Assembly: GCF_008710135.1 (NCBI RefSeq)
Contig: NZ_VYKK01000012.1
Location: 1 to 64,000 of the forward strand
DNA from: Paenibacillus spiritus
GTDB taxonomy: Bacteria; Bacillota; Bacilli; Paenibacillales; Paenibacillaceae
Length of the DNA stretch: 64,000 nucleotides
Direction of reading: 5' to 3'
The position numbers and the translations under genes were made by a program. The number at the start of each line of letters is the position of its first letter. Within the stretch, counting starts at the first letter, position 1. The notes under the pieces were generated by a model. The model worked only from the letters and a program-made list of their open reading frames with translations, made no database searches and was not told where the DNA came from. This document shows positions 52,415 to 55,298 of this stretch, one piece after another.

Positions 52415-53017
52415 TTAAATTCGGTTTCTCTTGTCCAGCAGCTTCAGCACGCCGTCTACCCGAATCGGCGCCTGCACCTCTGCGCCCGGAACGCGCTGCA
52501 GGGTCAGGCCCTGGATCAGGCTGACCAGATAGAACGCCAGCTCCAGCGGATCGCCGTCGATCACTGCGCCCTCCCGCTGTCCCTGCTCGATAATGGCGGA
52601 GACGGGCAGCAGGTTCCGGGTGAACCGCTCTGTTACCTGACTGCGCGTTCCCGGCAGGGAAGTCTCCGCCAGGCGGGCGCTGTGAATCAGGATGGTATGC
52701 GCCCAGTGGTTGCGGACGGACAGCCAGCTGGAACAGATCAGATGCAGCTTCTCCAGGGCCGGCAGATCGAGCGAGGCGGTATGGGTCACAAATTCGCCGT
52801 AGGCTGTCTGTCCCCGCTTCAGAATCTCGTCAAAAATCTCGTCCTTGGATTTGAAATAATGATAGACGTTGCCGACGCTGATCTTGGCCGCGGCCGCAAT
52901 ATCGCTGATGCTGACTGCCCCGATTCCCTTGACGGCGATGACTTCAAGCGCGCAGTCCAGCAGGTGGTTGAGCCGCTTCTCGCGCAGCGCTTGGTCTTTC
53001 TCGGCATTTCTAGCCAC
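52415..53017 (-). CDS. TetR/AcrR family regulator
   Basis: A 200-residue regulator. DNA-binding part: LLDCALEVIAVKGIGAVSIS, then KISVGNVYHYFKSKDEIFDEIL (about residues 45-70). The C-terminal ligand domain (about 75-195) is typical TetR helical sequence. It precedes the sulfonate operon on the same strand, with a 9-bp-arm palindrome between, suggesting it controls that operon. The inducer is unknown. Confidence 0.88.
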   Translation of the reverse strand: MARNAEKDQALREKRLNHLLDCALEVIAVKGIGAVSISDIAAAAKISVGNVYHYFKSKDEIFDEILKRGQTAYGEFVTHTASLDLPALEKLHLICSSWLSVRNHWAHTILIHSARLAETSLPGTRSQVTERFTRNLLPVSAIIEQGQREGAVIDGDPLELAFYLVSLIQGLTLQRVPGAEVQAPIRVDGVLKLLDKRNRI

Positions 53018-53191
53018 TCGTGTATTCCTCCATCAGGTCTTGACGTGGGATATGCTCTTGGGATGAACCGTTACTTAGTATAAGCCGGTCCCGGGCTGTA
53101 AAACAAGGCCGGGCATCCCGTCCGAAACAGCTTGCCATTTGCCGCCGCATGCGATTAAATGAGACCAAACGTCGGAATGGAGGAGAACGGG

Positions 53192-54241
53192 ATGACCGGA
53201 CAAGAGATGAATCCGCCCCTTCCGCCGGGCCCCGCAGGTTGCGGGGAAGCGGACATGGCGGCCATAGCGGATACACCGGATACAGCGGATACAGCGGCTG
53301 CCGCGAACAGCCGTACCGAGCTTGCGACTTTCGCCGGGGGCTGCTTCTGGTGCATGGTGAAGCCGTTCGACGAGCTGCCGGGCATCGTCTCGGTCGTATC
53401 CGGCTACACGGGCGGCCGGACGGCGAATCCGACCTATGAAGAGGTCGGAACGGAGACTACGGGTCATTACGAGGCCGTCCGGATCGTGTTCGACCCGGAG
53501 CGGTTTCCCTATGAACGGCTGCTTGGGCTGTATTGGCAGCAGATTGATCCGACAGATGCGGGCGGGCAGTTCCTGGACCGGGGAAGCTCGTACCGGACGG
53601 CGATCTTCGTCCATGGCGATCGCCAGCGGGAACTGGCGGAGAAATCGAAGCGGGAGATTGCGGCCAGCGGCCGGTTCAGCGGCCGCATTGTAACGGAGAT
53701 TCTTCCGGCGGGTCCGTTCTATCCGGCGGAGCCGGAGCACCAGCATTACTACAAGCACCGGCCGTTCGATTATAAGCTCTATCTGAAGGGATCGGGGCGG
53801 GCGGATTACTTGGAGGCCCGGTGGAACCGGCCGGAGGACCGCGAGCGTCTGCGGCGGACGCTTGCTCCGCTGGAATATGAGGTGACCCGGAACCGGGGGA
53901 TGGAGCCGCCTTTTGACAATGCCTATTGGAACAACCGGCGGCCGGGCGTTTACGTTGACCTTATCACCGGCGACCCGCTGTTCGCGTCTGCGGATCAATA
54001 CGAGGCGGGTGACGGATGGCCGGCCTTCCGGCGTCCGCTGGCCGAAGGCCGAATCCGCCGGGAAGCGGACCTTCGGCCGGGGATGCCGCGCACAGGGCTG
54101 CGCAGCCGGTTAAGCGGCGCCTGGCTCGGCCACCTGCTGTATGACGGTCCCGCGCCGGACGGGCTGCACTACCGGGTGAACTCGGCGGCGCTGCGTTTTA
54201 TCCCGGCGGAGGACGAGCTGCACGAAGAGGAGCGGAATTGA
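53192..54241 (+). CDS. MsrA fused to a degenerate MsrB domain
   Basis: A 349-residue protein. Residues about 40-195 are an MsrA methionine-S-sulfoxide reductase with the nucleophile in [17 protein letters not shown], then [33 protein letters not shown] and [10 protein letters not shown]. Residues about 215-345 are an MsrB fold ([49 protein letters not shown]). In that half the usual catalytic residues are changed: YCIN is YRVN (nucleophile Cys to Arg), GCGWP is GDGWP and the first His of SHLGH is Trp. So MsrA is probably active, MsrB not. I chose the ATG at 53192, with GGAGGAG six bases upstream. Bacillus also has fused MsrAB-type genes. Confidence 0.88.
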
Positions 54242-54610
54242 ATGGAACTGCGCGTCGAAGAGGCGGGACATCAGGATGTGGAGCTGCTGGCTGATATGAA
54301 CCGCCAACTGATTGAAGACGAGGGACATGACCATCCCCTGGAAATCCCGAAGCTGAAGATTCGGATGGAGGCGCTGCTTCGCGGCGGCTACCGGGCTTAT
54401 TTGTTCATGCAAGGCGAAGAGGTGCGCGGCCGGGTGGCCTTCGGCAGACTGCTGGAGATCCTGGATACCGGGGCGCTGGATGTCGAGGTGCTCTCCTGGA
54501 ACAAGCGGGGACAGGCTTTCTGGAAGTCGCTCGGCTTCGCGGAGCGGAGTGTCTATCTCCGGCGGGAAGGAGGGATGAACGATGTCACAGCTTCAGATTC
54601 TGGTCATTGA
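54242..54610 (+). CDS. short GNAT acetyltransferase, internally shortened
   Basis: A 122-residue protein related to GNAT acetyltransferases: it opens DVELLADMNRQLIEDEGHDH and ends VEVLSWNKRGQAFWKSLGF plus AERSVYLRR, typical N- and C-terminal GNAT parts. Between them the middle (around residues 55-70, LFMQGEEVRGRVAFGRLL) is too short: the beta-4 strand and much of the acetyl-CoA-binding loop seem missing. An in-frame deletion of roughly 25-30 residues is inferred. It starts right at the msrAB stop and overlaps the response regulator gene by 29 bases. Probably not catalytic. Confidence 0.6.
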   Translation: MELRVEEAGHQDVELLADMNRQLIEDEGHDHPLEIPKLKIRMEALLRGGYRAYLFMQGEEVRGRVAFGRLLEILDTGALDVEVLSWNKRGQAFWKSLGFAERSVYLRREGGMNDVTASDSGH

Positions 54611-55298
54611 CGATGAATGGAACATGCGCAATCTGCTGCGCATCTATCTGACGCGGGAAGGGTTCGGCGTAGCCGAAGCGGCAAGCGGCAGCGAGGCGCT
54701 GGAGCTGATGGGGAGGCAGGCGTTCCACGTGATCCTGCTCGATGTTATGCTCCCGGACATGGATGGCTGGGAAGTCTGCCGCCGAATCCGGCAGCATGCG
54801 CAGACGCCGGTCCTGATGCTCACGGCACGTTCGGAGACGAAGGATAAAGTACACGGGCTTGGACTAGGCGCGGACGATTATTTAACGAAACCGTTCGAGC
54901 CGGAGGAACTGCTGGCCCGGATTCATTCCCTGATCCGCCGGACGGCCCTTCATCCGGCGGCGGGAGCGGCTGTGCCGCGGCTGGAATACGGACGGTTGGC
55001 GATTCTGCCCGAAGGCCGGGAAGTTCGGGTGTCCGGCCTTCCGGTCGAGTTCACTCCGAAGGAATTCGATCTGCTGCTGACGCTGGCGAAGAACGAGAAG
55101 CGCGCCTTCAGCCGGGAGGAGCTGGTCAGTCTGGTCTGGGGAGGCGACTACGAAGGGGAGACCCGGGCGGTCGATACGCATATCAAGAACATCCGGGAGA
55201 AGGTCCGGAGAGCGGGCCTCGGCTACAATCCGGTTCAGACGGTCTGGGGAGTCGGGTACAAATTTAGCGGGGCGGGCCAAGCCGATGAGCCGGAATAA
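54582..55298 (+). CDS. OmpR-family response regulator
   Basis: A 238-residue two-component regulator. Receiver domain residues 1-120: acid pocket IDDEWNMRNLL, phosphorylated Asp in ILLDVMLPDMDGWEV, Lys in LTKPFEPEELLAR. DNA-binding winged helix: LPVEFTPKEFDLLLTLAKNE, VDTHIKNIREKVRRAG, VWGVGYKF. It overlaps its sensor kinase gene by 14 bases. GAAGGAGGG precedes the ATG. Target genes unknown. Confidence 0.94.
   Translation: MSQLQILVIDDEWNMRNLLRIYLTREGFGVAEAASGSEALELMGRQAFHVILLDVMLPDMDGWEVCRRIRQHAQTPVLMLTARSETKDKVHGLGLGADDYLTKPFEPEELLARIHSLIRRTALHPAAGAAVPRLEYGRLAILPEGREVRVSGLPVEFTPKEFDLLLTLAKNEKRAFSREELVSLVWGGDYEGETRAVDTHIKNIREKVRRAGLGYNPVQTVWGVGYKFSGAGQADEPE

Follow-up and report, generated by a model that had tools for sequence, protein, structure and literature searches.

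A gene in the window (the whole stretch of 64,000 nucleotides that was analysed) encodes an MsrA-MsrB fusion whose MsrB half has no Cys, and this half, from a known family, is an old pseudoenzyme domain that selection has maintained; both the loss and the clade that shares it are firm. The nucleophile of MsrB is a Cys (or Sec) in the motif RYCIN, while the recycling Cys of GCGWP is absent from 1-Cys MsrBs. The best explanation, in which we place about half of our confidence, is a methionine-S-sulfoxide reductase in which the pseudo-MsrB would act as a non-catalytic structural or regulatory partner of MsrA. The first-pass annotation, made from this one sequence, had described an MsrAB fusion with an apparently inactive but retained MsrB half. 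What goes beyond that view is an old clade extending over about ten genera, alongside intact MsrAB.

The open reading frame runs from 53159 to 54241 (+) and encodes 360 aa. An in-frame ATG at 53192, taken as the start in the first-pass annotation, is the likelier start because it is preceded by GGAGGAG at 53179-53185; residues are numbered here on the 360-aa frame, from which 11 is subtracted for the 53192 start. MsrA and then MsrB lie in a single chain, the order of bifunctional MsrAB, and each is matched by Pfam above its cut-off (PMSR, the MsrA model, 196.4 bits vs. 23.7; SelR, the MsrB model, 107.6 bits vs. 24.9) in one frame that is open across both halves, so the earlier description of an intact fusion holds. 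The NCBIfam models TIGR00401 (MsrA, 189.2 vs. a cut-off of 108.1) and TIGR00357 (MsrB, 137.8 vs. 113.05) agree, and the bifunctional MsrAB models NF010625 and NF004042, which cover other architectures (longer, or with B before A), fall below their cut-offs (226 vs. 522 and 265.9 vs. 330). No promoters or terminators were found in a scan of 53000-54700. The features of the gene are collected in Table 1.

Table 1. Features of the fusion gene and its product, with positions in the window and residues numbered on the 360-aa frame.
Feature	Position	Strand	Basis
MsrA/pseudo-MsrB fusion gene	53192..54241	+	frame open from 53159
MsrA domain (PF01625), residues 56-206	53324..53776	+	Pfam match
GCFWC motif, MsrA nucleophile Cys62 and Cys65	53339..53353	+	sequence and alignment; recycling role of Cys65 putative
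Inter-domain linker, residues 207-234	53777..53860	+	gap between the two Pfam matches
Pseudo-MsrB domain (PF01641 SelR), residues 235-349, no Cys	53861..54205	+	Pfam match; predicted fold resembles solved MsrB structures
Residue 248, Met; Thr in canonical copies (Thr192 of SpMsrAB)	53900..53902	+	alignment; role from excerpts of PMC2713860
Residue 285, Asp (GAC), at the recycling-Cys site of GCGWP	54011..54013	+	alignment
Residue 322, Trp, at the first active-site His of SHLGH	54122..54124	+	alignment
Residue 337, His; Arg in canonical copies	54167..54169	+	alignment
Residue 339, Arg (CGG), at the nucleophile site, RYCINS to HYRVNS	54173..54175	+	alignment

The starting point for comparison was 100 related genomes, and many of the congeneric ones hold a second, low-scoring SelR match. 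A first alignment of 88 proteins of at least 300 aa comprised 38 copies that share the losses (two of them identical copies from one genome, G049), 40 canonical copies and 10 that were set aside, namely L033, L036, L081, six GCFWG-type fusions and L037 (a canonical copy of G049 with a broken C-terminal frame). In a tree of the MsrA half (88 rows, MsrB columns left out) the 38 dead copies form one clade with an SH-aLRT of 100, as they do in a tree of the MsrB half (SH-aLRT 99) and in an MsrA-half tree that includes other genera (125 rows, 67 clade and 58 canonical, with two clade rows repeating a genome; SH-aLRT 99); the three trees come from a quick search and their support is SH-aLRT only. 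By sequence comparison, a single origin of this paralogous clade from a duplicated MsrAB fusion is well supported. Among the proteins set aside, L033, L036 and L081 lie outside the dead clade, keep the MsrB nucleophile Cys and carry Thr at the GCGWP Cys, and the MsrA of L033 and L036 has GCFWQ or GCFWS instead of GCFWC. Two frames of 517 aa (L079 and L080) consist of a GCFWG-type MsrA-MsrB fusion with a long N-terminal part, and canonical MsrAB is also present in those genomes.

In total, 80 clade copies were read, from 79 genomes in about ten genera and two families. A profile of the clade MsrA half, searched against 100 genomes of the genus, Paenibacillus, gave 57 matches of at least 302 bits in 56 genomes among the matches listed, cleanly separated from the next match at 285.6. 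These 57 are open frames of at least 320 aa except for one of 218 among the matches listed, and when all 57 MsrB halves were read two were broken within MsrB (by a stop and a frameshift); no clean reduction to MsrA only was found among the 57. Outside the genus, the clade occurs in at least 22 genomes, which fall under nine further genus codes and the family codes f1 and f6. The order-wide search behind this covered 392 genomes and 40 candidate regions were read, 26 clade and 14 canonical. Judged by motif, 7 of the 80 loci among the matches listed in a contig search are clade members, and the other 73 retain the nucleophile Cys; Cohnella sp. REN36 likewise has a clade copy. Across all copies, L041, L211 and L283 are broken inside MsrB (TGA, TAG, frameshift) with the MsrA half open, and by their sequences these are candidate cases in which the pseudo-domain was lost recently. 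A local pseudogene or sequencing error in one genome has nothing more to recommend it than the odd residues themselves; with an open frame, an omega well below 1 and the same losses in orthologues of 78 other genomes, we rejected it as vanishingly improbable.

A second MsrB, which the first-pass annotation had suggested looking for, is present in the source genome as a canonical MsrAB with RYCINS (G000:C34:318986). The genome has two SelR matches, the window gene at 110.6 bits and this canonical MsrAB at 165.6 bits, and the two proteins are 57% identical over 314 aligned positions. Its three MsrA matches are the two fusions and a stand-alone MsrA of 186 aa (GCFWC type). The pairing recurs throughout the first set of 38 carrier genomes, which hold 39 clade copies including one broken by a stop: in 36 the canonical MsrAB is intact and reads RYCINS (all 31 of a later batch plus five), and in the other two (G034 and G049) the canonical MsrAB is frame-broken in the assembly. 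Directly downstream in the window, a 122-aa ORF at 54242-54610 (+) begins at the MsrA/MsrB stop codon. It has no Pfam match; in the genus, matches to it turned up in 14 of 100 genomes, counting the source genome, and its residues 3-65 and 62-109 match one frame of relatives (e.g., G107). The two matched parts flank about 24 missing residues, so this is apparently an internally deleted gene; by eye, its N- and C-terminal parts look like a GNAT acetyltransferase.

The motif changes listed in the first-pass annotation (YRVN for YCIN, GDGWP for GCGWP, and WLGH for SHLGH, the last within AWLGH) were all recovered when the protein was aligned with MsrB homologues. All canonical copies of the first set (n = 40) have RYCINS, GCGWP, SHLGH, Glu301, Glu313 and Arg337. 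At the nucleophile site, 339, Cys is found in 40/40 canonical copies and in 0/38 clade copies (R 25, Q 7, H 3, S 2, V 1), and because all 38 orthologues lack it while all 40 canonical copies have it, the substitutions are more than chance. The same is seen in the 77 complete clade copies (R 49, Q 12, H 9, V 2, S 2, E 2, L 1; Cys 0/77), the remaining three of the 80 ending before this site through a TGA, a TAG or a frameshift, and in the wider canonical set, where Cys is present in 58/58. The recycling site, 285, is T 30, D 4 and S 4 in the clade against C 40 in canonical copies of the first set, and T 61, D 11 and S 7 over all clade copies (n = 79). Canonical copies have His in 40/40 at both 322 and 325, where the clade has Y 33, H 3, W 1, F 1 and H 17, Q 11, Y 7, R 3, respectively.

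According to excerpts of PMC2713860, His266, His269, Cys284, Asn286 and Thr192 of SpMsrAB are proposed to be important for MsrB catalysis; in our own alignment these match His322, His325, Cys339, Asn341 and Thr248. None of the five catalytic identities is invariant in the clade. The active-site His pair and the Thr are kept in 15/79 (His322), 33/78 (His325) and 30/80 (Thr248) copies, with the window protein keeping His325 but having Trp322 and Met248 in place of His and Thr. It is therefore well supported, from the residues present, that the known MsrB mechanism would not run in this half. A different residue could still allow R-sulfoxide reduction, an idea that draws on a SelR score far above cut-off and on the retention of Trp287 (65/79) and Asn341 (60/77). 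However, a catalytic Cys elsewhere in the MsrB half was sought and rejected: the window protein has none, and across the 80 copies none is conserved (no Cys in 66, one in 12, two in 1 and three in 1, with a frameshifted tail contributing to the highest counts). Site 322 is a Cys in a single copy, L273. The two active-site His residues vary as well, as does the Thr, which binds water according to the excerpted PMC2713860, and a soybean MSRB2 in which the same Cys is replaced by Ser (C121S) is reported as inactive in PMC3680461. This makes an alternative residue highly unlikely, and from the alignment and by analogy with these enzymes we infer that the R-sulfoxide reductase activity of the MsrB half has been lost.

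Loss is accompanied by a set of derived residues. Glu301 is replaced by Lys or Arg in 78/79 clade copies, Glu313 is replaced in 79/79, and Arg337 has become His in 68/77 and Gln in 7 (in the first set, His in 38/38 against Arg in 40/40 canonical copies); the changes of Glu301 and Arg337 to basic residues or His are thus patterned across the clade. Gly297 (72/79), Arg317 (77/79) and Ser319 (70/79) are near-fixed. At all of these sites the canonical copies either fix a different residue or fix none. Such fixation of new residues would not be expected under random decay, although the clade stem accounts for part of the pattern by inheritance. These clade-specific residues (His337, Lys/Arg301, Gly297, Arg317 and Ser319, with Glu313 replaced) could reflect neofunctionalization into a binding or sensing domain, in which the MsrB pocket was remodeled to bind something else, be it a ligand or a protein, and the fusion directs MsrA to particular clients or regulates it. 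We regard this reading as possible but on balance improbable. Where the pocket would be lined, residue 339 varies (R, Q, H, V, S, E, L), as does 325 (H, Y, Q, R), a pattern unlike one conserved ligand site. Nor was a genomic partner seen among 56 clade loci, where no neighbor cluster occurs in more than 14/56, apart from the clade gene and a frame that overlaps it on the opposite strand. With equal reserve, one may picture the pseudo-MsrB as a rebuilt, non-catalytic recognition or regulatory module in which the catalytic residues were discarded and a new set was fixed; in that case the protein could be a methionine-S-sulfoxide reductase that is targeted or under allosteric control, coupling a reader of methionine oxidation to an eraser, or an MsrA that docks on its clients.

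The MsrB fold of the dead half is predicted to be intact. AlphaFold2 modeled residues 54-352 of the window protein with a mean pLDDT of 93.6 and a pTM of 0.88, and the canonical paralogue, from a shallower alignment, with 90.8 and a pTM of 0.70; the same structures were matched. The higher pTM of the window protein is weak support because its alignment is deeper. The best solved matches to the whole model are the MsrAB fusions 7e43 (Z 25.7) and 3e0m (Z 25.3), with an rmsd near 9 because domain placement differs. The MsrB half on its own is matched by the single MsrB structures 7cto, 6sym and 3hcg with an rmsd of 1.1-1.4 over 121-126 residues, the MsrB of Neisseria meningitidis PilB (3hcg) giving a Z of 21.1 and an rmsd of 1.1 over 126.

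Purifying selection on the dead half is real and is today close to that on the live half, which together with the predicted fold substantiates the earlier statement that the domain is kept. Nine disjoint sister pairs of recent divergence put omega at 0.11 (0.075-0.156) in the MsrB half and at 0.093 (0.065-0.129) in the MsrA half, a difference that is not resolved. Over overlapping pairs, close clade pairs give 0.106 and 0.082, respectively, and at larger divergence the medians are 0.167-0.198 for the MsrB half vs. 0.106-0.107 for the MsrA half. Where a genome has both paralogues (35 genomes, 595 genome pairs), dN of the clade copy is 4.22 times that of the canonical copy in the MsrB half and 1.46 times in the MsrA half. 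The clade thus has an MsrB/MsrA dN ratio of 1.85, compared with 0.63 for the canonical copies. The 4.2-fold dN and the higher omega at larger divergence mean that constraint on the dead half is relaxed relative to a live MsrB. This relaxation, also seen against its own MsrA half at larger distances, and the three of 80 copies broken inside MsrB with the MsrA part open would suit a leftover domain that is passively retained as part of a stable fold and selected merely against misfolding. We consider this unlikely, as omega in recent pairs is not separable from that of the live half, the domain is retained in 77/80 copies across ten genera, and its derived residues are fixed. Retention of a dead domain over about ten genera instead suggests a job other than catalysis.

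On the preferred reading, that job would be exercised through the MsrA half. Cys62, Phe63, Trp64, Cys65, Tyr83, Glu105, Asp140 and Tyr145 are invariant in 80/80 clade copies, and Tyr83, Glu105, Asp140 and Tyr145 are what we take to be MsrA catalytic residues; the MsrA motifs are thus complete, as annotated, with every catalytic residue checked present. Cys97 (VCS motif) is found in 39/40 canonical copies and is Gly in 37/38 clade copies of the first set, a change inside the live half that accompanies the dead MsrB. Reduction of methionine-S-sulfoxide is the best reading of the activity predicted from these residues. Following duplication of an MsrAB fusion, the MsrB half would have lost R-sulfoxide chemistry while the domain was retained. 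Cys62 would attack Met-S-O and Cys65 would resolve the sulfenic acid, Cys65 of GCFWC being the likely recycling residue because no other Cys is conserved in the clade, and the usual reductant, thioredoxin, would complete the cycle. The pseudo-MsrB and linker may hold or tune the MsrA half through stability, substrate docking or regulation, and repair of R-sulfoxides would fall to the canonical MsrAB. Since the source genome has a stand-alone MsrA, MsrB is not needed for MsrA chemistry in general, and support by MsrB would therefore be specific to the fusion paralogue. A near-complete MsrA half on its own, the relaxed constraint and the lack of a conserved neighbor among the clade loci all count against the partner role.

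Why some bacteria fuse MsrA to MsrB is a question raised in the excerpted structural papers (PMC2713860, PMC8000184). The clade offers a natural separation of function in which MsrB chemistry is gone, the domain is kept in 77/80 copies and an intact paralogue serves as an in-cell control, so that comparison of the two paralogues probes the role of MsrB in the fusion beyond R-sulfoxide reduction. It is also a warning for annotation, as standard profiles still label the dead half MsrB. Searches of open-licence PubMed Central turned up no paper describing an MsrAB whose MsrB half is dead, and none about Paenibacillus MsrAB.

Among known systems, the MsrAB of Streptococcus pneumoniae (3e0m) and Helicobacter pylori (7e43, the crystal of a Cys-to-Ser mutant) have the same MsrA-linker-MsrB order and both folds. 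Excerpts of the respective papers give the catalytic and recycling Cys of their MsrB halves as Cys284/Cys229 (PMC2713860) and Cys318/Cys263 (PMC8000184), and the C-terminal recycling Cys of MsrA as Cys150 (PMC2713860) and Cys184 (PMC8000184); the clade lacks all of these. The H. pylori enzyme provides a precedent for support of MsrA by its MsrB partner, since PMC8000184 reports a 6.82-fold lower kcat/Km for Met-S-O with the MsrA domain alone, and a reduced kcat for Met-S-O with the C-terminal helix changes E339A and Y343F. In Clostridium oremlandii, the activity of a 1-Cys MsrA depends on a non-catalytic C-terminal domain (PMC4333827, in excerpt), although that accessory domain is helical and unrelated to MsrB. 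A SelR/MsrB-like fold is also found in a structural setting in the Tetrahymena mitoribosome (6z1p chain BL, Z 17.6), which is eukaryotic and without an MsrA fusion. Closest of all is the parent family, the canonical GCFWC-type MsrAB (L001 and relatives), which coexists with the clade and shares its GCFWC MsrA and architecture, but keeps the MsrB catalytic motifs together with Glu301, Glu313 and Arg337, all of which the clade has lost.
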